Shown here: positions 4,525 through 43,839 of the stretch, piece by piece
Layout of the letters: every line of letters starts with the position of its first letter
Numbering within the stretch: position 1 is the stretch's first letter
Origin: Brevibacillus massiliensis
GTDB taxonomy: Bacteria > Bacillota > Bacilli > Brevibacillales > Brevibacillaceae
Assembly (NCBI RefSeq): GCF_000311785.1
Contig: NZ_HE978541.1
Location: 49,895-113,894, forward strand
Direction of reading: 5' to 3'
Length of the DNA stretch: 64,000 nucleotides
The notes under the pieces: generated by a model
What the model was told of the DNA's origin: nothing
The model's database searches: none
The model's input: the letters and a program-made list of their open reading frames with translations, nothing else
Made by a program: the position numbers and the translations under genes

Positions 4525-4704
4525 GACCGGAGGGACAATGCTCTGGGGAAAACGCTGGATACATAAGTGAATGATCGATGCAAAAATGACTTAACCACTT
4601 GAACCGGGCGGAGCAGCTCATTTCAAACAGACCATTCGCTGATGTGCAGACGATATGAATTCATTCTTGAATCAATGAACGGCAGTATTTAGGTGAAATG
4701 GGCT

Positions 4705-4720
4705 TGGACCGGAACTTGCA
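4705..4720 (+). promoter_or_regulatory. Candidate sigma-54 (-24/-12) promoter
   Basis: TGGACC (4705-4710), five bases, then TTGCA (4716-4720). The invariant GG and GC are exactly 10 bp apart, as sigma-54 requires. The -12 half is perfect and the -24 half is 4/6 to TGGCAC. A perfect ATGAATTCAT palindrome at 4655-4664, about 45 bp upstream, could be part of an activator site. The location between a sigma-54 activator and the SDR/acyl-CoA operon supports the call. Confidence 0.6.
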
Positions 4721-14663: not shown

Positions 14664-15746
14664 ATGGAGAAAATCTTGAGGGAGTTGTGTTCACTCACCG
14701 GGCCGTGCGGCTTCGAGCATGAAGTCGCCCGCTATATCGTGTCAAGAGCGGAGGGGTGGGCGGACGAAGTACGGGTGGATGGCCTGGGAAATGTCTTTGT
14801 GGTCAAAAGGGGGAAAAACCCGGGTCCGCGCCTGATCGTGTCGGCACATATGGACGAAATCGGATTTATTGTCAAGAAAATTGAGCCAAACGGATTGATT
14901 CGGTTTGAAAAACTTGGCGGGCATGACGATCGGATTTTGCTGTCGCAAAAGGTCCGCATCTTGACGGAAGAGGGGCCGCTTTTGGGGGTAATCGGCACCA
15001 TTTCTGCTCACATGGCCAAGTATGACAATGTCCAGAAGGTGCGAAAGCATTCAGAGATGTACATAGATGTAGGCGCTGAGAGCAAGGAAGCGGCCGAAAC
15101 GCTGGGAATCCGCGTCGGCGACCCGATCAGTTGGGCCACGGAAGTGGAGCGCTTGGGCAGTAACCGGCTGGTGGGCAAGGCATTCGACGACAGGGCAGGA
15201 TGCGCTGTGCTGCTGAAAGCCCTGGAAGAGACGGACTTCACACAGGTGTACGGTGAGGTATGCGGCGTGTTTTCTGTTCAGGAAGAAGTGGGACTGCGCG
15301 GGGCCAAGGTCGCGGGCCAGCAGTACGGGGCAGATGTGGCCCTGGCGATCGATACGACGCCGGCCAGCGATACGCCGGAAGAGATGATGGATCAGACGCT
15401 TGTCCTCGGCCAGGGACCGGGCGTCAAAATCATGGACTTCAGCCTGATTGCCAGCAAAGCGGTGAGAAAGAAACTGATGACGCTGGCCAAGCGGCACAGC
15501 ATTCCCTGTCAGCCGGAGGTGTTCCCCGGAATCGGCACGGACGCGGGTTCGCTGCATACTTCACAGGGGGGAATCCCGACGGGCGTGCTGTCCATCCCGT
15601 CCCGCTACGCGCATTCCTCGGTTGAAGTGATCGATCTGAGGGATTTGGAGCATACGGCGGAATTGCTTAAGGCCTTTATTCTCGACATGCGCAATGCTGA
15701 TGAATTTGCTTTTTTGCAAAGGGTACAACGACCTAGAACGACTTAG
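14664..15746 (+). CDS. M42 family metallo-aminopeptidase
   Basis: A 360-residue cytosolic peptidase of the M42 (PepA/FrvX) family. The co-catalytic metal ligands are visible in order: SAHMDEIGF, FDDRAGC, VQEEVGLRGA, AIDTTPASD and RYAHSSVEV. The insertion between the first two is the usual M42 dimerisation domain. It would trim peptides from the N terminus. Only 13 bp separate it from a peptide-binding lipoprotein, so it likely digests what the downstream transporter imports. The ATG at 14664 is preferred over a longer frame from 14556, which overlaps the promoter. Confidence 0.92.
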   Translation: MEKILRELCSLTGPCGFEHEVARYIVSRAEGWADEVRVDGLGNVFVVKRGKNPGPRLIVSAHMDEIGFIVKKIEPNGLIRFEKLGGHDDRILLSQKVRILTEEGPLLGVIGTISAHMAKYDNVQKVRKHSEMYIDVGAESKEAAETLGIRVGDPISWATEVERLGSNRLVGKAFDDRAGCAVLLKALEETDFTQVYGEVCGVFSVQEEVGLRGAKVAGQQYGADVALAIDTTPASDTPEEMMDQTLVLGQGPGVKIMDFSLIASKAVRKKLMTLAKRHSIPCQPEVFPGIGTDAGSLHTSQGGIPTGVLSIPSRYAHSSVEVIDLRDLEHTAELLKAFILDMRNADEFAFLQRVQRPRTT

Positions 15747-33400: not shown

Positions 33401-33498
33401 CAGCTATAGGCAAGCACATCAAGTTTTCAATGTGCCGTGACCCATGGAGACAATGCAAATAATGTAGAAGTATGAGGAAACGAAAGAAGGAATACTCG

Positions 33499-34566
33499 AT
33501 GGGTACAGCAAAGAAATGGAGGCTTGTCCGAAAATACTCGCGGAAATGCGGTCCTGTCTGGTATGTCAAATCGGAAGAAAAACGGAGAGCGTATTTTAAG
33601 TACGTGAACTGGGGATCGATTTTGGCCAACGAATTAATCTGTTACCGTCTGGCCCGGTTAATCAAGCTGAAAGCGGCAAAAATAGAGCCGGTGGAGATTG
33701 AAGGTAAGCGAGGAGTCGTTTCAATCGTTCGCCGGGCGCGGAGCCTTTCATCATGGAACGGTCTGTACAGGAAATTGCAGGGAGAGATCCTGAAGCATCT
33801 GAAGAAGCCGGAACAACTGCTGCAGACATTTGTGTTTGATATCTGGATCTGTAACGTGGACAGACACGGGGGAAATCTGATTACGTACCGCAAGGGGAAA
33901 AAGCTGTACGACTTTTATCTGATCGACCACGGATTGGCTTTACTGGGTGCAGCGAAATACAGGAAAACCGAATGGGATTCTTCCTATTGGGAGCACGTGG
34001 CCAAATACAACCATCACTATGTTCGCGGCTTGCGTGCTTCCATTCACAGCTATGAGCAGCTCTCCCCGTTTGTCCGGCAGATACAGGAGATTCCATCCGA
34101 TAAGATCAAAAAGATTGTGGAAGATGTGCCTTCCTCTCTTCTATCCCGTGAGAAAAAGGAGATCGTCGTCACATTCCTGCTGAATCGCCAACGAAACCTG
34201 CACAAGATTGTGAAGCTATGGATGGAGGAATCCAAGATCTGCAAAAAGAAAAAGCGGACCAAAAAGCGTGAGGATATCTCTTCGGCCAAACGACCCGTCG
34301 GTGACGCCGGCAAAGCTGTAGTGATCAGCGAACCGCCAGCGACGGAAGCCGTCGCCGGAACGGTGTACCATGCCGCCGAGCCCATACAAGTCACGGGAGA
34401 ACCAGGCACAGCAAAGCCAGGCACGGAAAATCCAATCACTGAAAATCCAAGCACAGCCATGCCGATACACGATCTTCCGGCTGAAGAAGCCATTTTCGCC
34501 GAAGCAGACGATGACCCTTTTGATTACGAGATGGAAGAAGAAGCCGGCGATGAAACAGTTCAATAG
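33499..34566 (+). CDS. HipA-like / PI3K-fold kinase with a low-complexity acidic tail
   Basis: A 355-residue protein. Residues 1-150 carry HipA/phosphatidylinositol-kinase-like motifs: NVDRHGGN (119-126, catalytic loop) and LIDHG (141-145, metal-binding Asp). Residues 150-255 are a helical, basic region. The C-terminal 90 residues are low in complexity, with Pro/Thr/Glu repeats of the type PGTAKPGTENPITENPSTA, and end strongly acidic. No HipB-type antitoxin gene is adjacent, so it need not be a toxin. ATG 33499 has GAAAGAAGG upstream; ATG 33472 would add nine basic residues. The substrate is unknown. Confidence 0.7.
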   Translation: MGTAKKWRLVRKYSRKCGPVWYVKSEEKRRAYFKYVNWGSILANELICYRLARLIKLKAAKIEPVEIEGKRGVVSIVRRARSLSSWNGLYRKLQGEILKHLKKPEQLLQTFVFDIWICNVDRHGGNLITYRKGKKLYDFYLIDHGLALLGAAKYRKTEWDSSYWEHVAKYNHHYVRGLRASIHSYEQLSPFVRQIQEIPSDKIKKIVEDVPSSLLSREKKEIVVTFLLNRQRNLHKIVKLWMEESKICKKKKRTKKREDISSAKRPVGDAGKAVVISEPPATEAVAGTVYHAAEPIQVTGEPGTAKPGTENPITENPSTAMPIHDLPAEEAIFAEADDDPFDYEMEEEAGDETVQ

Positions 34567-34604
34567 GGGTGTCGCCCTTGCCTGAGTGAGAAATTTTCCG
34601 GGGC

Positions 34605-35271
34605 TGAACTGCACCCAAATTGTTAGACACATAACAATTGGAGGTGCAGTTTTTCTATGGTTACATTTACTGCAGACGAGAAATTGTCAGCGGTTCAACG
34701 CTATTTAGATGGCGTAAGGAGTTATGAGTCGATTGCTGGATGCAATACGAGCGCAGCGGTGCAGGAGCATGTAGAAAATCCTATACAAGTTTTTCGGCGC
34801 AGTTTAAACTCGAAAATGGAGAATACAGTTCCATTCACAAGGAATAGACGTGCAATCAAAGAAAAAGGGGCGTCCAACCATGAAGAAGGAAAACAAGAAA
34901 GGAACACCCGTTGAAGGATCAGTCGAAGCACTGTAAGAAGAAATAGAGCGTTTACTTATGGAGAATGCTTTTCTAAAAAAGTTGAACGCCTTAGTTCAAA
35001 GCAAGGAAAAATTACAAAGCAAGATAAAGCGCAAACAGTCTTTACGCTTCGGATCAAGGCTGGCATCATCAAATGAGTACATACCAACACGCATGAGAGT
35101 ATGTCGCGAAAAGGGAACGGTTAGGATAACGCATCCCAGGAGTTTGAAAGCATGGAACATTTAAAGCAGGAATTGGAAAAATATATCGATTATTATAATC
35201 ACAAACGAATCAAGGCAAATCTTACATGCTGTTTCATCAAAGAACCAGTCTAACTTTTTGGGGTCACTTCA
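34605..35271 (+). mobile_element. Decayed IS3-family insertion sequence (IS150-like)
   Basis: Imperfect 24-bp terminal inverted repeats (34605-34628 and 35248-35271, 19 of 24 matching, inner ends GTTAGAC) bound 667 bp. An orfA start survives at 34657 (VTFTADEKLSAVQRYLDG), then the frame decays. The orfA end is visible near 34945-35030 (LLMENAFLKKLNALVQSKEKLQSKIKRK). The last orfB residues appear near 35150-35215 ([22 protein letters not shown]). The DDE catalytic core is deleted; intact relatives are about 1.4-1.5 kb. It is more AT-rich than its neighbours. Confidence 0.85.
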
Positions 35272-35460
35272 TTTCCTGTTTTCATTTAATTTAAACTTGT
35301 TTATAATCATTGAAAAGCAAAATACATCTGCGTACCCCGTTTCGTCTGATGGATTTTGCGGTAATATCCGAGTAAGAACATTGGATAAGAGGGAGGAATG
35401 GAACGCATCTTATGACGAGAGAGACCATGCTGCAAGAAAGGAGGCGAACCAAGAAGGCAA

Positions 35461-36435
35461 ATGCAGTACGACCAATGCGGTTTTTTTGATCAAAGTTATC
35501 TGGTCATGAATTCGGATGCGATGAAGTCCGTTTACAAATCGATCGATAACGTGGCGAAGTACGATTCGACCGTGCTGATCCTCGGTGAATCAGGTGTGGG
35601 CAAAGAAGTGCTGGTCAAGCGGATTCACGATTCAAGCCCTCGCGCCAAAGGGCCGCTTGTCCGGATCAACTGCGGAGCGATTCCCGATAATCTGATGGAA
35701 TCGGAGATGTTCGGGTATGAAAAGGGGGCTTTTACCGGTGCGACCAATCAGGGCAAGCTGGGATTGATTTCCCTCGCCAATAAAGGGACTCTGTTCCTGG
35801 ACGAAATCGGGGAATTGTCGCCGGCGATTCAGGTCAAGCTGCTGCGGGTCATTCAGGAGAGGCATTTCTATCCGATTGGCGGAGTGAGACCGGTGATGGC
35901 AGACGTCAGGTTTATCGCTGCGACCAACAAAAACCTGCGCAGTATGGTAGACAGCGGGAAGTTCCGGGAGGATTTGTACTACCGGCTGAACGTCGTTCCC
36001 ATCATCGTGCCCAGCTTGCGGGACAGAAAAGAGGATATTCCCCAGCTGATTCAGTTCTTTTTGCAGAAGTTCCAAAAAAAGTACAAGAAGTGCATGACAA
36101 TCACCGAATCGGCCTGCCGTTTGCTGTGCGAGTATGATTGGCCGGGGAACATTCGGGAATTGGAGAACATGATTGAGCGTTTGATCGTCACTGCTACTTC
36201 CGATGTCATCGTCTACGACGACATTCCCGAGGAGATACTGGTCAAGGGGGAGCAGAAGCCCCGTTTTACCGGAAAGACCCTGAAGGAATTGATGAGTGAG
36301 TACGAGTGCCAGATCATCAAAACGGCCTTGCAAAATCAAGAGTCGTTGAACAAGGCAAGCAAGCAGTTGGGGATTGACGTCTCGACCCTCTCGCGCAAAT
36401 GCAAAAAATATCAGATAGCGATTCCATCCCGATAG
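35461..36435 (+). CDS. Sigma-54-dependent activator without a sensor domain (regulator 2)
   Basis: A 324-residue enhancer-binding protein that starts almost directly with the AAA+ domain: Walker A GESGVGKE at 42-49, GAFTGA at 89-94, Walker B TLFLDE, and the arginine-finger region. It ends in a Fis-type helix-turn-helix (NKASKQLGIDVSTLSRKCKK). The PAS or other sensor part seen in regulator 1 is missing. The frame is closed by a stop at 35413-35415, and an IS3 relic ends 190 bp upstream. The start is uncertain; GGAGG at 35439-35443 is far from ATG 35461. It probably drives the -24/-12 promoter at 36582. Confidence 0.85.
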   Translation: MQYDQCGFFDQSYLVMNSDAMKSVYKSIDNVAKYDSTVLILGESGVGKEVLVKRIHDSSPRAKGPLVRINCGAIPDNLMESEMFGYEKGAFTGATNQGKLGLISLANKGTLFLDEIGELSPAIQVKLLRVIQERHFYPIGGVRPVMADVRFIAATNKNLRSMVDSGKFREDLYYRLNVVPIIVPSLRDRKEDIPQLIQFFLQKFQKKYKKCMTITESACRLLCEYDWPGNIRELENMIERLIVTATSDVIVYDDIPEEILVKGEQKPRFTGKTLKELMSEYECQIIKTALQNQESLNKASKQLGIDVSTLSRKCKKYQIAIPSR

Positions 36436-36450
36436 GCAAATATCGACAGT

Positions 36451-36532
36451 TTTTTGCGATTTCGCAAAAACATTTGTTATTTTGCAATATGCAAGATGGA
36501 GACAATTTTGAGTTTGTTGCGTTTTTGCAAAA
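36451..36532 (+). promoter_or_regulatory. Three TTGC/GCAA palindromes, likely enhancer sites for regulator 2
   Basis: Site 1 is a perfect 9-bp dyad with a 2-bp spacer, TTTTTGCGA and TCGCAAAAA (36451-36470). Site 2 is TTGCA-ATA-TGCAA (36482-36494). Site 3 is TTTTGCAAAA (36523-36532). All share a TTGC...GCAA core and lie 50-130 bp upstream of the -24 box, the usual range for a sigma-54 activator. No gene occupies 36436-36747. Confidence 0.6.
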
Positions 36533-36581
36533 TATACTCGGTTGAACCTGCAAAATTCGACAACTTTCCGCTTTCTTTTGT

Positions 36582-36597
36582 TGGCATGAAACTTGCT
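36582..36597 (+). promoter_or_regulatory. Sigma-54 (-24/-12) promoter of the ureohydrolase/ATC-hydrolase operon
   Basis: TGGCAT (36582-36587), five bases, TTGCT (36593-36597). It matches the consensus TGGCAC-N5-TTGCW at 10 of 11 positions, with GG and GC exactly 10 bp apart. It lies between a sigma-54 activator gene and the operon it should serve. Confidence 0.85.
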
Positions 36598-36747
36598 ATT
36601 TTTGCTATTATAGTGGTACAGGATTATTCGAAGGGGGAATTTGCCGATATTTGTGACCGGTGTTCTGCCGCTTGAAAGAGAAATGTTTCGATGCGGTAAA
36701 AGTGATTTGCAAAGAGTTTTAAAAGTCGAAAAAGGGGGATTTTTATC

Positions 36748-37878
36748 GTGAAAAAAATGATGACTTTATTAGCAGCTTTTTCACTTATCGCGGGAGTCCT
36801 TACCGGTTGCGGCAACAGTTCGGGCGGCTCTGGCGGAGACACGCTGAAAATCGGTCTGGCAGCACCGCTTTCCGGGGCTTCCGCACAGGACGGACAAGCC
36901 ATTAAAAAGGGTGCCGAGCTGGCTGTAAAACTGGCGAATGACGCCGGTGGGGTAAACGGGAAAAAGATTGAGCTGGTCGCAGAGGACGACAAGACCGATC
37001 CGAAAGAAGCGGCGATTGTCGCCAACAAGCTGGCGACTGACTCTTCCATACTAGCGGTAGTCGGACACTTTAACAGTTCCGCTACGCTGGCCGGAGCGCC
37101 GATTTACAACAAAAACAAAGTTGTGGAGATTTCTCCGGGATCCAGCTCTCCTGCTGTTACCGATGCGGGCCCTTACACGTTCCGCGTCATCACGACGGAT
37201 GCCTATCAAGGTGAATACGTGGCGAAATGGACTGCCGAAGAAGGCTTTAAAAAAGTTGCGGTGATCTACGAGAACACGGATTACGGTTTGGGCTTGGCAG
37301 ATGTGTACAAGAAGGCAGTAGAAGCAAACGGCGGACAAGTAGTTGCCATGGAATCCTACATTCTGGGCCAAACCAAGGACTTCTCGCCAATCTTGACCAA
37401 GATCAAGCAGCAGAATCCGGATCTTCTGTTTGTCGGCGGTCTGTACAATGAGGCAGCTCTGATCGCCAAGCAATCCAAGACACTCGGGCTAAACGTTCCG
37501 TTTATGGGAGTGGACGCGCTCTATTCCAATGCCTTGATCGATCTGGGCGGAGACGCCGTAGAAGGATTCATGCTGCCCGGCTTCTTCAATTCTTCCAGCG
37601 AGAAAGAAAACGTCAAGGCTTTCGTGAAGAGTTATGAAGAGGCGTACAAAGAATCTCCGAGCACCTATGCTGCTTACGCGTTTGATGCAACGCAAATCCT
37701 CATAAAGGCGATGAAGGAAAAAGGAGCAGACCGCCAGTCGATTGCCGATTATCTCACGACGCTGAAAGGCTATGAAGGCGTAACCGGCGTACATGACTTT
37801 GACGAAAACGGCGATGTCATGAAAGAACCTGAGAAGCTGATTGTGAAGGACGGTAAATTCCAATCATACACGAAATGA
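36748..37878 (+). CDS. LIV-type ABC transporter substrate-binding lipoprotein
   Basis: A 376-residue binding protein of the LIV family. The signal peptide ends in lipobox LTGC, then a Gly/Ser linker, then LKIGLAAPLSGASAQDGQAIKKGAELAV and VAEDDKTDPKEAAIVANKL, both classic for amino-acid binders (LivJ/LivK type). GTG 36748 has AAAGGGGGA upstream. It is the first gene of the sigma-54 operon and should set the substrate range. Branched-chain amino acids are possible, but the downstream enzymes suggest another amino-acid-like ligand. Confidence 0.92.
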   Translation: MKKMMTLLAAFSLIAGVLTGCGNSSGGSGGDTLKIGLAAPLSGASAQDGQAIKKGAELAVKLANDAGGVNGKKIELVAEDDKTDPKEAAIVANKLATDSSILAVVGHFNSSATLAGAPIYNKNKVVEISPGSSSPAVTDAGPYTFRVITTDAYQGEYVAKWTAEEGFKKVAVIYENTDYGLGLADVYKKAVEANGGQVVAMESYILGQTKDFSPILTKIKQQNPDLLFVGGLYNEAALIAKQSKTLGLNVPFMGVDALYSNALIDLGGDAVEGFMLPGFFNSSSEKENVKAFVKSYEEAYKESPSTYAAYAFDATQILIKAMKEKGADRQSIADYLTTLKGYEGVTGVHDFDENGDVMKEPEKLIVKDGKFQSYTK

Positions 37879-37886
37879 CATGTTCC

Positions 37887-37914
37887 CGGGTGAAAGGATC
37901 GATCCTTTCACCCG
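37887..37914 (+). repeat. Perfect 28-bp palindrome between binding-protein and permease genes
   Basis: CGGGTGAAAGGATC (37887-37900) is followed at once by its exact complement GATCCTTTCACCCG (37901-37914). It starts 9 bp after the binding-protein stop and has no T run. It probably folds at the 3' end of the binding-protein message and protects it from decay, giving more binding protein than permease. Confidence 0.75.
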
Positions 37915-37939
37915 AGATTCCCTCAAAGGAGCGATCGAA

Positions 37940-38812
37940 TTGCTGTCTCAACAAATAATTAACGGGATCACGATCGGAGCGATATACGCGCTAATTGCCC
38001 TCGGGTATACGATGGTCTATGGAATCTTGAAAATTGTCAACTTTGCTCATGGCGATATCTTCATGATGGGTACATTCTTCGGTCTGTTCATTCTCAAGTA
38101 TTTTAACGCCCCGTTTTTTCTCGCATTTATTCTGTCCGCGTTGTTTACCGCTTTGCTCGGCATGGTAGTGGAGAGGTTGGCCTATCGCCCGTTGAGATTT
38201 ACCGACAGGATTGTTCCTTTGATCAGCGCTATGGGTGTCTCCATCTTCCTCGTGAATCTGGCCCAGTTGGTCTGGGGAACGGAAACACACCCATTTCCCA
38301 AAGTGTTTCCTATCAAGACGTATACGTTTAACGGTATGACAATCTCCAGCATTCAGATTTTAATCCTGGTCTTGTCGGTCATCCTGATGATCGGACTTCA
38401 TCTGTTCGTGACGAAGACACGCATCGGAACAGCGATGCGGGCGACCTCGATGAGCATCACGAACGCCAAATTGATGGGAATCAACACCAATTTCATCATT
38501 GCGATTACGTTTGCCGTCGGTTCGGCTTTGGCTGCCGCTGCGGGAATCCTGGTGGGAATCTACTATGACGCCGTTTACCCGACGATGGGATACACCGCAG
38601 GCTTGAAAGCATTTACTGCGGCCGTATTGGGCGGAATCGGCAATATTCCGGGAGCCATGGCAGGCGGCCTGCTCCTGGGGATCACCGAGAACCTGGGTGC
38701 TGCTTACATCTCGTCGCAGTATCGGGACGCCATTGCTTTCATCATCCTGATCGTGGTCCTGATGGTAAAGCCGACAGGTATCTTTGGCAAAAAAGAAATA
38801 AACAAAGTGTAG
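37940..38812 (+). CDS. LIV-type ABC transporter permease (LivH family)
   Basis: A 290-residue permease with SQQIINGITIGAIYALIALGYTMVYGILKIVNFAHGD at the N terminus and LGGIGNIPGAMAGGLLLG near the C terminus. TTG 37940 is chosen because AAAGGAGCG lies upstream. The longer frame from ATG 37880 would read through the 28-bp palindrome and is unlikely. Confidence 0.92.
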   Translation: MLSQQIINGITIGAIYALIALGYTMVYGILKIVNFAHGDIFMMGTFFGLFILKYFNAPFFLAFILSALFTALLGMVVERLAYRPLRFTDRIVPLISAMGVSIFLVNLAQLVWGTETHPFPKVFPIKTYTFNGMTISSIQILILVLSVILMIGLHLFVTKTRIGTAMRATSMSITNAKLMGINTNFIIAITFAVGSALAAAAGILVGIYYDAVYPTMGYTAGLKAFTAAVLGGIGNIPGAMAGGLLLGITENLGAAYISSQYRDAIAFIILIVVLMVKPTGIFGKKEINKV

Positions 38813-38822
38813 GTGGGACCAT

Positions 38823-39818
38823 TTGAAATCAACGAGGTTGCTCAAGATTGTCGCTGCGCTGCTCATTTTGGCCTTGCCGCTCTGGTTGAGAAATGAGTAC
38901 ATGCTGCACATTGCCATTTCCATCGGCATTTACATCATGCTCGCACTCAGCCTGAATACGATTGTCGGGTATGCCGGCCAGTTTGCGCTGGGACACGCCG
39001 CGTTTTACGGAATCGGCTCTTATGTAACGGCCTTGCTTTTGCTCAATACCGACCTCTCGTTCTGGCTGGTGCTGCCGATTGCCGGACTGGTGACAGGCTT
39101 GTTCGGGTTCATCCTGGGAAGTCCCGTCATCAGGCTGCGGGGGGATTACCTCGGGATTGTTACATTGGGCTTCGGGGAAATCATCCGCCTGATTTTTGTC
39201 AACTGGGTGGATGTGACTCGCGGTCCGATGGGGCTGCCCGGCATTCGCTCTCCAGAGCTGTTCGGATACACCTTTACCAGTTCAGCCGACTTCTATTACC
39301 TGGTGCTGGTCTTGGTGGCGATAACGGTATTGGTCATCTACCGGGTTGTTCACTCCGGAATGGGGCTCAGCCTGCTGACCGTGAGGGAAGACGAGGTTGT
39401 CGCCGAATCGATCGGAATTCGCCCGACCAAATACAAGCTGATCGCCTTTACGATGGGCGCGCTGTTTGCAGGTGTCGCCGGCGCTTTTTACGCTACCTAC
39501 ATCTCCTTCATCAGCCCGGACTCCTTCCTGTACACAGACTCCGTGATGATCCTCGCCATGGTGGTGCTCGGCGGGATGGCAAGCGTCACGGGATCGATCC
39601 TGGGTGCGATCGTCCTGGTCGTCACGCCGGAGCTGCTTCGCTTTGCCAGCGACTACAGAATGATGCTGGTCGGCTTGGCGATTGTGTTGATGATGGTCTT
39701 CAAGCCGCAGGGCTTCTGGGGTGAATCGCGGCGAAAGCGCAATTTCTACGGCAAAGAGTTGGCTGACAAACCGCAAAAAAGCGCGGCTGCCGTATCTGAT
39801 TCCAACAGCGCAACCTAG
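38823..39818 (+). CDS. LIV-type ABC transporter permease (LivM family)
   Basis: A 331-residue permease with [24 protein letters not shown] and [20 protein letters not shown] 38823 follows AGGTGGGA. The C-terminal 30 residues are a polar cytosolic tail. It pairs with the LivH-type subunit 10 bp upstream. Confidence 0.92.
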
Positions 39819-39849: not shown

Positions 39850-40626
39850 ATGGAAGTATTGAAGCTGGAAGGCGTTACCGTGAAATTCGGCGGTCTGGTC
39901 GCCGTCAACAATGTGGATCTGACGATGAACAAGGGAGAAATCCTCGCCTTGATCGGTCCGAACGGGGCGGGGAAAACAACCCTGTTCAACCTGTTGACCG
40001 GCATTTACACCCCTACGTCGGGCAGGATCACGTTCAAGCAGAAGGAGATCAATGCCTTCAAACCCTATAAACGGGTGGAGATGGGGATTGCCCGTACCTT
40101 TCAAAACATCCGGTTGATCAAAAGCTTGACCGTGCTGGAAAACGTCCTGGTCGCTCACCCGGAGTGTCATTCGGAGGGGCTGTTCCAGTCGATTTTCCTG
40201 ACGCGGGCTGTGAAGGAAAAACGAAAGAGGATTGTCGAGGAATGCATGGATGTCCTGCGCACAGTGGGGCTCCACGCAAAGGTGAATGAACTGGCCAACA
40301 ACCTGCCGTACGGCGAGCAGCGGCTGCTGGAAATCGCCCGGGCGATGGTCACCAAGTGCCAACTGCTTTTGCTCGACGAACCGGCGGCCGGGATGAACTC
40401 GCAAGAGAAGCAGTCCCTGGTCGATTTGATTCGCTTGCTGTCGAAGAAGTACGAGATGGAAATCTTGCTGATTGAACACGATATCCGCATGGTAATGAGC
40501 ATTGCAGATCGTGTCGTCGTTCTCGACCACGGAGAGAAAATTGCCGAAGGCGTCGGAGCAGAAGTTCAAAATAACCCGAAAGTCATTAAGGCCTATTTGG
40601 GAGAGGAGATCGATGAAAATGAGTGA
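39850..40626 (+). CDS. LIV-type ABC transporter ATPase (LivG family)
   Basis: A 258-residue ABC ATPase with Walker [13 protein letters not shown], the LivG-type signature [15 protein letters not shown], Walker [16 protein letters not shown] and H-loop [17 protein letters not shown] precedes the ATG. Its last bases overlap the ureohydrolase start, so the enzyme is translated together with the transporter. Confidence 0.93.
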
Positions 40627-41599
40627 ACAAAACATCTACGGCAACACACCATGCTTCCTGGGAGGAAAAAACATCTCGGCGGACGGCAATACAGATGACG
40701 TCGATGTCGTGGTTTACGGCGTTCCGTGGGAAGGAGCAGTCACTTGGGGCGACTACACAGGCTGCGAATTGGGACCAAAGGTAATGCGCTTGTGCTCGGC
40801 CCGCTACACCGGTTATCTGCCGGAATTGGACCACATTGACGTATTTGAGCACGTGAAAATTGGCGATTTGGGCGATGTCGATGTCGTTCCTGCCGACGTA
40901 GCGGAAAGCGTCAGCCGGATTGAGAACTTTGCGGATAAAGTATGGGCCACCGGCAAGTTTCCGATCGCGCTTGGCGGCGACCACGGCATTACGTACCCGA
41001 TCGTCAAAGCCCTGAGCCAACGAGTGAAAGGCAAGGTCGGCATTATCCACCTGGATACGCACTACGACAATAAGCCGCACTATGCCGGCGATCCGTTTGC
41101 CCGCTGCTCGCCGTTTGCCCGCCTGTATGAAACCGAGGGCGTGCGCAACGAAAGCATCGTTCACATGGGGATTCACGGTCCGAGAAACGCCGCCGACAAC
41201 GGCAGACTGGCCAAGCAGGTAGGAGCGACGACGATTACGCTGATGGATATTCGCGCCAGCCGCGATCTGAAGGAATTGGCGAGAAAAGCGTACGAGATCG
41301 CCAGCAAGGATACGGAAGTGGTCTATCTGAGCATCTGCAGTGACGTCATGGACTATGCGTTTAATCCCGGCGGTCCGGCTGACGGCAACGGTTTGACTTC
41401 TTTTGAGCTGCTGACGCTCGTCTATGAATTCTGCAAGATGGGCATCCGCGGCATGGACTTCGTAGAGGTGTATCCGCAGCAGGATCCCAACAAGTTTTCG
41501 GCGCATTTTGCCTCCACTCTCGTTCTGTACGCGCTGGCGGGCAATATCCACAAGAACTCCAAATCCGACAGAGGAGTAAAGGAACATGTTGCAAATTGA
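40613..41599 (+). CDS. Ureohydrolase (arginase/agmatinase family) with an altered metal site
   Basis: A 328-residue protein of the arginase/agmatinase fold. The first metal motif is GGDHG (121-125, His124), and the second is DTHYD (Asp148, His150, Asp152). The third motif, normally SxDxDxxDP, reads SICSDVMDYAFNP at 240-252. Cys242 therefore sits where the first of the two Asp ligands is expected, while Asp244 is kept. The late Glu in DFVEV (Glu285) is also kept. Family enzymes hydrolyse guanidino groups to urea using two Mn2+ (or Ni2+ in guanidine hydrolase). The gene lies between the two transporter ATPase genes, overlapping both, which ties it to the imported compound. ATG 40613 or 40619. 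Confidence 0.88.
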   Translation: MKMSEQNIYGNTPCFLGGKNISADGNTDDVDVVVYGVPWEGAVTWGDYTGCELGPKVMRLCSARYTGYLPELDHIDVFEHVKIGDLGDVDVVPADVAESVSRIENFADKVWATGKFPIALGGDHGITYPIVKALSQRVKGKVGIIHLDTHYDNKPHYAGDPFARCSPFARLYETEGVRNESIVHMGIHGPRNAADNGRLAKQVGATTITLMDIRASRDLKELARKAYEIASKDTEVVYLSICSDVMDYAFNPGGPADGNGLTSFELLTLVYEFCKMGIRGMDFVEVYPQQDPNKFSAHFASTLVLYALAGNIHKNSKSDRGVKEHVAN

Positions 41600-42293
41600 G
41601 GGGCTCTCTATCCACTATGGCGTCATACCGGCGGTGAAGAAACTGAATATCGAAGTAAAGCAAGGAGAAGTGGTCACCTTGATCGGGGCCAATGGTTCCG
41701 GCAAAACGACGACTCTGCGCGGCATTTCCGGTATTACGAGAGCCAAGGAAGGCAAAATCCTCTTTCAGGGAAAGGACATTACCAAAATGGAGGCCCACCA
41801 AATCGTCGCGATGGGCATCTCCCAGGTGCCGGAAGGACGCGGTGTCTTCCCGGATTTGAAGGTGATTGAAAACCTGTACATGGGCGCTTACCTGCGCCGG
41901 GACAAAAAGCAAATCCAACGGGATGTGGAGGAGGTATTTCACCTCTTCCCCCGCCTGGAGGAAAGAAAGGAACAGGTAGCCGGAACGCTCAGCGGCGGAG
42001 AGCAGCAGATGCTGGCCATGGGCAGGGCGCTTATGTCCAAGCCCAAACTGCTGCTGCTCGATGAACCGTCCATGGGACTGGCGCCGATCATCGTGAAAGA
42101 GATCTTCAAGATCGTCAAGCGGATCAACGAAGAGGGGACGACAGTGCTGCTGGTCGAACAAAACGCCAACATGGCGCTTTCGGTCGCCCATCGCGGATAC
42201 GTCCTGGAAACAGGGGAAATCGTGGAGCAAGGCACGGTAACAGAGCTGCAAAACAACGACAAAATCCGCAAAATTTATCTGGGCATACATTAA
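41586..42293 (+). CDS. LIV-type ABC transporter ATPase (LivF family)
   Basis: A 235-residue ABC ATPase with Walker A GANGSGKTTT, signature LSGGEQQM, Walker [14 protein letters not shown] and a LivF-type C terminus (TVTELQNNDKIRKIYLG). It overlaps the ureohydrolase by 14 bp and completes the transporter. Confidence 0.94.
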   Translation: MLQIEGLSIHYGVIPAVKKLNIEVKQGEVVTLIGANGSGKTTTLRGISGITRAKEGKILFQGKDITKMEAHQIVAMGISQVPEGRGVFPDLKVIENLYMGAYLRRDKKQIQRDVEEVFHLFPRLEERKEQVAGTLSGGEQQMLAMGRALMSKPKLLLLDEPSMGLAPIIVKEIFKIVKRINEEGTTVLLVEQNANMALSVAHRGYVLETGEIVEQGTVTELQNNDKIRKIYLGIH

Positions 42294-42325
42294 TTGAGAT
42301 AAAATAAGAGTGGAAGGTGAAACCT

Positions 42326-42847
42326 ATGACGGAGGAAAAAGACACCAAACAACAAGAGGAAAAAGAGCGCTTGGAACCCGTCTCGATGTATTCGATCATG
42401 GCGAAGCTGTTTGCCTGTGTAGCCAAAGAGGTAGTCGACCGTTTCGGCGAAGCGGGCAAGGAAGCGGTTATGGAAGGCGTCAGGGTGTTTGGAGAAGAGC
42501 GCGGCCGGGAGATTGCCAAAAGAGCGGCGATGGTTGGCGAGCCCAACGGGATTGAAAATTACCTGCCCAATTACGACATGGGCCGCTCCACTCTCTTTGA
42601 GTATACGACTGAGATGCATCCGAACGTCATTGAGCAGAATTTCACCAAATGCGCGTTCGCGGATCAGTGGAGGAAGGATGGAATGGAAGAATATGGAATC
42701 CTCTACTGCAAAATGATCGATCCTGCGATCGCCCGCGGCTTTAATCCGAACTTCGAGGTCGTTCACGACAAGTACCTGTTGAAAAATGACGGCGCGTGCC
42801 ACTTTCTGTTTCAAATGAAGGACGACAAGGAAAAAGAGACCAACTAA
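42326..42847 (+). CDS. L-2-amino-thiazoline-4-carboxylic acid hydrolase family protein
   Basis: A 173-residue soluble protein that I recognise as the ATC hydrolase family. Landmarks are GKEAVMEGVRVFGEERGREIA, NYDMGRSTLFEY, CAFADQW and YCKMIDPAIARGFNPNF. The studied Pseudomonas enzyme opens the ring of L-2-amino-thiazoline-4-carboxylate, a cyclic isothiourea, to S-carbamoyl-cysteine. GGAAGGTGA precedes ATG 42326. It follows the transporter and precedes a glutaminase in the same operon. A role in opening a cyclic amidine-type ring is inferred; the actual substrate may differ. Confidence 0.78.
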   Translation: MTEEKDTKQQEEKERLEPVSMYSIMAKLFACVAKEVVDRFGEAGKEAVMEGVRVFGEERGREIAKRAAMVGEPNGIENYLPNYDMGRSTLFEYTTEMHPNVIEQNFTKCAFADQWRKDGMEEYGILYCKMIDPAIARGFNPNFEVVHDKYLLKNDGACHFLFQMKDDKEKETN

Positions 42848-42870: not shown

Positions 42871-43839
42871 GTGAAACAGGCACATACAGAGCAATGGTCA
42901 GCACTTCTGCATGAATGGGTCGAATCCGCCCGTTCGCACCACGTCGAAGGGCGGTGTGCGGATTATATCCCCGCTTTGGCGAAGGCAAATCCAGCAGATC
43001 TGGGAATTTGCCTCTGCGCTGCTGACGGCACTACCCTTCAAGCAGGGCAGTGGGACGTGCCTTTTACCATGCAGAGCATTTCAAAAGTGATCAGCTTTAT
43101 CGCCGCTTGCATGGACCGCGGTATTTCCCGGGTAACCGAATCGGTAGATGTCGAACCTACGGGGGACCCCTTCAATTCGATCGTTCGCCTGGAAAATCGC
43201 CCTGGCAAACCGTTTAACCCGCTGATCAATGCCGGGGCGATTACGGTGGCCTCGCTGCTTCCCGGTGCCACGCCGGCAGAAAAGCTGGAGTGCGTGCTGC
43301 ATCTGCTGGAGAGAATCGTCGGGAAGCGGCCAGCGATCAATGAACAAGTGTACCGCTCGGAATGGGAATCGGCGCACCGCAACCGCGCTCTGGCCCACTA
43401 CCTCAAAGAGCTGGGATATCTGGAGTCGACAGTAGATGAGGCGCTGGAGGTGTACTTTAAGCTCTGCTCGATAGAGGTGAACACGTCCCATCTGGCAGAG
43501 ATCGGGCTGACGATCGCCTGCGACGGAATGCATCCGCTTCGTGAGGAAGCGATCATTCCGAAAGAGGTGGCAAGGGTCAGCAAAGCGCTGATGCTTACCT
43601 GCGGCATGTACAACGCTTCAGGCAAGTATGCCGCCTATGTCGGTGTCCCGGCCAAAAGCGGGGTATCAGGCGGGATCATGGCAGCTGTTCCTCCCCGGGT
43701 AAGAGACGAACGGCTTCCTTTTCTCGGCGGCTGCGGCATCGGCATCTTCGGTCCCGCTGTAGACGACAGCGGGAACAGCGCGGCAGGAGGCGTCCTGCTC
43801 AGGCAAGTTGCGGCTCAGTGGGATTTGAGTATATTTTAG
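42871..43839 (+). CDS. glsA: Glutaminase A
   Basis: A 322-residue glutaminase of the serine-dependent beta-lactamase-like fold. The catalytic SxxK pair is Ser69 and Lys72 in MQSISK. NPLINAGAI, the ICSIEVNT-like region and AKSGVSGGI are all present. It converts glutamine to glutamate and ammonia in the cytosol. GTG 42871 follows AAAGGAA, 23 bp after the ATC-hydrolase-like gene. Its place at the end of a sigma-54 operon with two nitrogen-releasing hydrolases suggests a nitrogen-scavenging route. Confidence 0.94.
   Translation: MKQAHTEQWSALLHEWVESARSHHVEGRCADYIPALAKANPADLGICLCAADGTTLQAGQWDVPFTMQSISKVISFIAACMDRGISRVTESVDVEPTGDPFNSIVRLENRPGKPFNPLINAGAITVASLLPGATPAEKLECVLHLLERIVGKRPAINEQVYRSEWESAHRNRALAHYLKELGYLESTVDEALEVYFKLCSIEVNTSHLAEIGLTIACDGMHPLREEAIIPKEVARVSKALMLTCGMYNASGKYAAYVGVPAKSGVSGGIMAAVPPRVRDERLPFLGGCGIGIFGPAVDDSGNSAAGGVLLRQVAAQWDLSIF

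Follow-up and report, generated by a model that had tools for sequence, protein, structure and literature searches.

The stretch at 36453–36597, which lies between the gene of a sigma-54 activator (regulator 2) and a set of transport and catabolic genes, is very probably the control region of a sigma-54-dependent operon. Its three sites A, B and C would be the enhancer sites (UAS) from which regulator 2 loops to the promoter and activates it. Positions are those of the window, i.e., the whole stretch of 64,000 nucleotides that was analyzed (G000:C7:49895-113894, in a genome of 5.06 Mb in 37 contigs, here the source genome). According to the proposed mechanism, regulator 2, encoded just upstream, would bind A, B and C through its HTH domains, its AAA+ ring would loop to the RNA polymerase-sigma-54 sitting at the -24/-12 element (36581–36597), and ATP hydrolysis would open the promoter for genes encoding a Liv-type ABC transporter, a ureohydrolase, an ATC-hydrolase-like protein and a glutaminase. 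An earlier note on this DNA had suggested enhancer sites for the neighbouring activator. The comparison with an ortholog from another family (genome G183) supports this reading at the level of sequence, in that the regulator, the sites and the promoter have been kept together there and the intervening DNA has diverged.

Promoter, probable enhancer sites and predicted operon

On the plus strand at 36581–36597, TTGGCATGAAACTTGCT matches the sigma-54 consensus at 13 of 13 positions, with GG-N10-GC placed in a TTGGCAY-N5-TTGCW context and the first G of the -24 GG at 36583. It is the sole 13/13 match in the 64-kb window, in line with the strong -24/-12 promoter claimed previously; the three runners-up each score 11/13, and three whole-window shuffles, pooled, gave ten scores of 11, two of 12 and none of 13. 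The same element is found in the ortholog. Letter for letter, the promoter also fits the sigma-54 consensus TTGGCATNNNNNTTGCT given for the Clostridiales in the text of PMC6615313. The sigma factor itself is encoded by rpoN (sigL) in the source genome, where positions 2–160 of the 160 in PF04552 are matched on contig C5 (215 bits), and rpoN is encoded in G183 as well.

Two further sigma-54-like sites of the source genome were noted. One of them, TTGGACCGGAACTTGCA at 4704–4720 (11/13), lies between regulator 1 (PAS, AAA+, HTH_50) and the next gene and is a possible but weak promoter candidate, since shuffles attain the same score. The other is located immediately upstream of a LevR-like activator of 1052 aa on contig C19 (L116:222-3420), which has PRD and PTS domains and whose residues 4–54 match the final part of the DNA-binding domain of sigma-54.

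Predicted sites A (36453–36468, TTTGCGATTTCGCAAA), B (36473–36488, TTTGTTATTTTGCAAT) and C (36516–36531, GTTGCGTTTTTGCAAA) have their centres 122.5, 102.5 and 59.5 bp from the -24 GG, in agreement with the 50–130 bp proposed by the earlier note. All three share a core resembling TTTGY-N6-GCAAA, so that several inverted repeats precede the promoter, as in a UAS, and they score 10, 8 and 9 of 10 against TTTGC-N6-GCAAA at 36453, 36473 and 36516, respectively. With spacings of 20 bp (A–B), 43 bp (B–C) and 63 bp (A–C), i.e., about 2, 4 and 6 turns of 10.5 bp, the sites would be expected to lie on a common face of the double helix.

The three related palindromes that had been read by hand, TTTTTGCGATTTCGCAAAAA at 36451–36470 (9-bp arms, 2-bp spacer), TTGCAATATGCAA at 36482–36494 and TTTTGCAAAA at 36523–36532, all exist as strings, but the second and third turned out to be in the wrong register when judged by conservation. 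The second joins the right half of site B to a half that is unconserved in the ortholog, and the third falls largely in the right part of site C, which contains most of 36523–36532. Judged by the window sequence only, the second dyad scores higher in the N5 register (9/10) than as site B (8/10), and the choice of register for site B therefore rests on the ortholog, from which the right half of the N5 register is absent. The N5 register was set aside on this ground; for that dyad as such, chance may be the explanation. Ortholog comparison thus proved able to correct the register of dyads read by hand.

Within the intergenic region, TTTGC-N6-GCAAA cores of at least 9/10 occur twice, whereas 5,000 dinucleotide shuffles average 0.079 and reach two in 0.2% of cases. 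Other spacers at the same threshold gave one core each for N5 and N9 (equalled by about 8% of the shuffles) and none for N3, N4, N7 and N8; at 8/10, spacers of 8 and 9 are mildly enriched too (1.7% and 1.6% of 1,000 shuffles), partly through the same T/A runs. Because the core was derived from the window, these window-only statistics are partly circular, and it is the ortholog that provides the independent test.

Eight closely spaced genes follow the promoter on the same (plus) strand and would form the operon. The first encodes an ABC substrate-binding protein of the branched-chain-amino-acid type (36748–37878; PF13458), followed by a LivH-type permease (37880–38812) and a LivM-type permease (38823–39818), both PF02653, a LivG-type ATPase (39850–40626; PF00005), a ureohydrolase of the arginase/agmatinase family (40613–41599; PF00491), a LivF-type ATPase (41586–42293; PF00005), an ATC_hydrolase-family protein (42317–42847; PF14196) and a glutaminase (42871–43839; NF009021, above cut-off). 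The names LivH, LivM, LivG and LivF are those of the best NCBIfam models, each of them below cut-off. Among solved structures, the ureohydrolase comes closest to 3-guanidinopropionase and "agmatinase 2" enzymes, at no more than 121 bits, with the 3-guanidinopropionase chain 3nip as the nearest. A search of genome contigs with the substrate-binding protein returned 22 loci, the best of them 42% identical; in the four that were annotated, Liv genes were present and regulator 2 and the ureohydrolase were unmatched.

Conservation of the sites and competing explanations

The clear ortholog of regulator 2 in G183 is 69% identical by tblastn and 67% identical across the whole alignment, in which Walker A and GAFTGA are kept. 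The protein has 332 aa and its gene lies 253 bp upstream of a ureohydrolase gene (78%), beyond which a transporter-like ORF and a glutaminase gene (57%) follow; the first gene after the promoter thus differs from that in the window. By eye, the sequence of the transporter reads as an APC-type permease. Three cores scoring 9, 9 and 8 of 10 are found at L095:7911, 7931 and 7974, with centres 123.5, 103.5 and 60.5 bp from the -24 GG, a uniform shift of 1 bp from the distances in the window. In a gapless alignment of the two regions, 26 of the 30 core positions are identical compared to 20 of 72 flanking positions; identity is 17/49 from site C to the promoter and 13/18 over the promoter positions. 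All six site copies have GCAA as their right half, and the core is matched least well by site B of the window and site C of G183 (8/10 each).

Two cores of at least 9/10 precede the promoter in G183, a count reached in 0.06% of 5,000 shuffles. When the three distances of the window were imposed and all three were allowed to move together by up to 5 bp, none of 20,000 shuffles of the G183 upstream DNA attained 26/30, the maximum being 21. The same position match was scored for 35 sigma-54-like sites in the loci, a set that omits identical duplicates and sites with less than 150 bp upstream (less than 200 bp for the core count, which likewise covered 35): the window reached 27, G183 26 and the best of the 33 others 17. 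As expected of a UAS, the sites are therefore conserved with the ortholog of the enhancer-binding protein (EBP), in one ortholog and to within 1 bp. It had been argued beforehand that loss of the dyads beside a retained promoter would speak against enhancer sites, and in the one ortholog where this was checked, sites, promoter and regulator have stayed together. Since the sites are kept at the same promoter distance beside the same activator, they are very probably its docking sites; with a single ortholog found, this conservation rests on two sequences.

Searches for additional orthologs of the regulator gave no clear case among 59 relatives, 39 genomes of the order, 398 of the phylum and 398 of the class, nor in 11 genomes of the family and 15 of the order to which G183 belongs, and every match among plasmid records was under 60%. 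In the class search (E <= 1e-105, best five candidates per genome), only the source genome, G183 and G213 were recovered, and the 53% match of G213 was rejected as a clear ortholog on account of its PAS domains. As the class and phylum genomes were drawn as samples and the best five candidates per genome were scored, misses are possible. With the ureohydrolase as query, a class search over 398 genomes, apparently those of the regulator search, recovered 24 at E <= 1e-90, including the source genome. Thirteen of the 23 loci outside the window, G183 among them, were annotated over 14–17 kb, and the other ten were covered by the class search with the regulator and by 1.5-kb flanks. G183 alone of these 23 has a sigma-54 site or a core of at least 9/10 within 400 bp upstream; the 22 control loci contain neither a sigma-54 site scoring at least 11 nor a core scoring at least 9 over that distance, and two of them hold a single 8/10 core. 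In the 12 controls annotated over 14–17 kb the Liv operon is absent as well, apart from one distant LivG match, so that the regulator is not the only difference between these loci and the window.

These comparisons bear directly on the strongest alternative, which is nonetheless unlikely: that the sites serve another DNA-binding protein, either a different sigma-54 activator or a repressor of the operon, and that regulator 2 is a bystander. Candidates would not be scarce, as the regulator, counting its own gene, has 33 matching stretches in the source genome at E <= 1e-60, and similar cores adjoin other activators in other genomes. A bystander, however, would not readily account for sites, promoter and regulator remaining neighbours in G183 despite a different first gene, nor for the lack of any second matched activator gene in 17 kb of that locus. 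All 22 of the other ureohydrolase genes are without the promoter and without a 9/10 core, and the class search, scoring the best five candidates per genome, yielded such a regulator in the source genome, G183 and G213 only.

Far less probable is that dyad A is the terminator of the regulator gene and the remaining dyads are incidental. Site A does lie 17 bp past the stop codon and appears terminator-like in a scan, and by eye its G183 copy sits within a terminator-like hairpin followed by T's; yet the tail in the window reads CATTTGTTAT, terminator-like sites are at chance level (3 found vs 2.9 expected), the distance from the stop codon varies (17 vs 28 bp) while that to the promoter is kept, and B and C are conserved too. 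That the dyads arose by chance in AT-rich DNA is scarcely credible: the region is 63% AT and a perfect core also occurs within a coding ORF at 15705, but the position-locked match appeared in none of the 20,000 shuffles and background identity is merely 20/72. An RNA element at 36420–36560 was also considered and not accepted (folding z = -1.94, with 7 of 200 shuffles equally good), and Rfam gave no match within 34500–37500 up to E = 1.

Regulator 2 and the wider occurrence of the core

Regulator 2 (35461–36435, plus strand; 324 aa) comprises, by Pfam/NCBIfam, an AAA+ domain with GAFTGA, a lid and a C-terminal HTH. The sigma-54 interaction AAA+ domain PF00158 scores 232.9 bits and is matched from residue 15. 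The "Fis-type HTH" named in the earlier note holds broadly, as HTH_50 is the best model (38.3 bits) and HTH_8/Fis the second (27.4 bits), both above their cut-offs. Although not obligatory, an N-terminal sensor domain is usual in bacterial enhancer-binding proteins, and Pfam/NCBIfam list none in regulator 2 or in its G183 ortholog; the AAA+ match starts at residues 15 and 24, respectively. It is this sensor-less architecture of the activator that is less usual here, and the missing recognized domain in both orthologs raises the question of what switches the system on. Judging from its domain layout, regulator 2 may be active whenever it is made; since the activator lacks the domain in both genomes, our guess is that control probably operates through regulator abundance or a partner protein.

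Directly upstream of regulator 2, at 34605–35271, lies a degraded insertion sequence, IS3-like by eye from its ORF remnants, with 24-nt terminal inverted repeats that are 79% complementary. It adjoins a HipA-like kinase gene (33472–34566; HipA_2 at 28.0 bits, barely over the cut-off of 27). That the IS remnant might explain the lack of a sensor domain was rejected, because the G183 ortholog is also without the domain. The regulator gene may have a sigma-A promoter at 35279–35307 on the plus strand (TTTTCA-17-TATAAT, 10/12); it is a weak candidate, such sites being about as frequent as expected (3 found vs 2.9).

A lone core says little, for the source genome contains 21 perfect TTTGC-N6-GCAAA cores, and if up to one mismatch is allowed the count is 365, compared to 273 for the pattern reversed; it is the three cores at conserved distances that distinguish the region at 36453–36597. 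Four of the 20 other perfect cores were examined (window 15705, C24:9650, C9:86549 and C9:135520), and none lies within 200 bp upstream of a sigma-54-like site. All ten genomes searched have GCAAA 35–65 bp upstream of sigma-54-like sites, at one to nine places each (nine in G034, seven in G019 and six in the source genome). One of these six is the present promoter, and the four that were fetched lack a 9/10 core over the 200 bp upstream, a weak check on the statement of the earlier note that the HTH has no other evident target. A stricter pattern had no match in the source genome, and that pattern misses this promoter too.

Similar cores were nevertheless seen next to other activators, as the alternative of another binding protein would have it. 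The PAS-type relative of regulator 2 in G213 (L114:440-2800), whose AAA+ and HTH region is 53% identical, has sigma-54-like sites on both sides, each preceded by TTTGC-N6-GCAAA-like cores. On the one side, a perfect core lies 71.5 bp before the sigma-54-like site, an 8/10 core 141.5 bp before it and a 9/10 core, within the activator's own last codons, 161.5 bp before it; an additional 9/10 core precedes the divergent sigma-54-like site. In G055 (L009:413-1510), a sigma-54-like site separates a PAS-type activator gene from the asparaginase-like gene that follows (both by eye); the 9/10 core before this site overlaps the end of the activator gene. Nine of the 29 loci L002–L030 have a sigma-54-like site, and among these the G055 locus alone has a 9/10 core within the 200 bp before it. 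In G183 itself, a RidA-like gene (by eye; L119:2769-3400) is preceded by a sigma-54-like promoter, and 109.5 bp upstream of that promoter lies a 9/10 core, making the gene a possible second target of the G183 regulator.

As a lead, the core may be common to a subclass of HTH domains and could be recognized by other activators; because the same core adjoins them, regulator 2 may not be the only protein to use it. We would put forward only as speculation, and one we consider rather doubtful, that regulator 2 and its ortholog, as Gram-positive activators naturally devoid of a sensor or other input domain, have kept a fixed three-site enhancer while the transporter was swapped (Liv-type ABC in the window, APC-like in G183), and that TTTGC-N6-GCAAA is the shared code of an HTH_50/Fis recognition-helix subclass (ST-[LI]-[ST]-RK) used by several activators of the Bacilli.

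Comparison with known systems

The region would be a further example of a well-known type of gene switch, for which we claim no novelty in print; what it offers is a predicted binding motif for an uncharacterized activator, together with a testable operon. PspF, the activator of the phage shock operon, is likewise sensor-less and consists of AAA+ and HTH only, a layout that it shares with regulator 2, and its target operon is unrelated. Neither the motif nor the operon was found in the literature covered, which included the text of PMC4428206 and had figures, supplements and most subscription papers outside its scope. Arginase/agmatinase-family genes are already among the sigma-54-controlled groups in the Bacillota described in PMC12316311; the text available from that study names no such activator, motif or operon, and neither Brevibacillus nor Aneurinibacillus is mentioned in it.

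The closest parallels in the texts consulted come from Bacillus thuringiensis. The GabR-gabT system (PMC4279683) resembles the one proposed here in its TGGCAT-type sigma-54 promoter, in an activator acting at a repeat region close upstream of the promoter and in its role in the catabolism of a nitrogen compound. GabR differs in having a PAS sensor, a domain of which none was found in regulator 2; deletion of the PAS domain raised gabT activity with or without GABA (PMC4279683). Its site, a 21-bp inverted repeat separated by 5 bp, is also unlike the TTTGC-N6-GCAAA sites. In the SoxR-soxB system (PMC4941409), the activator adjoins its own sigma-54 operon, as here, and an inverted-repeat site was footprinted, although the 29-bp AT-rich footprint of SoxR is without TTTGC-N6-GCAAA. 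The study of Clostridiales EBPs (PMC6615313) followed the same logic as ours, locating the UAS motifs of orthologous EBPs beside sigma-54 promoters; according to its text, fifteen EBP groups have TGT-N10-12-ACA, unlike the sites described here, and other groups may include a matching motif.
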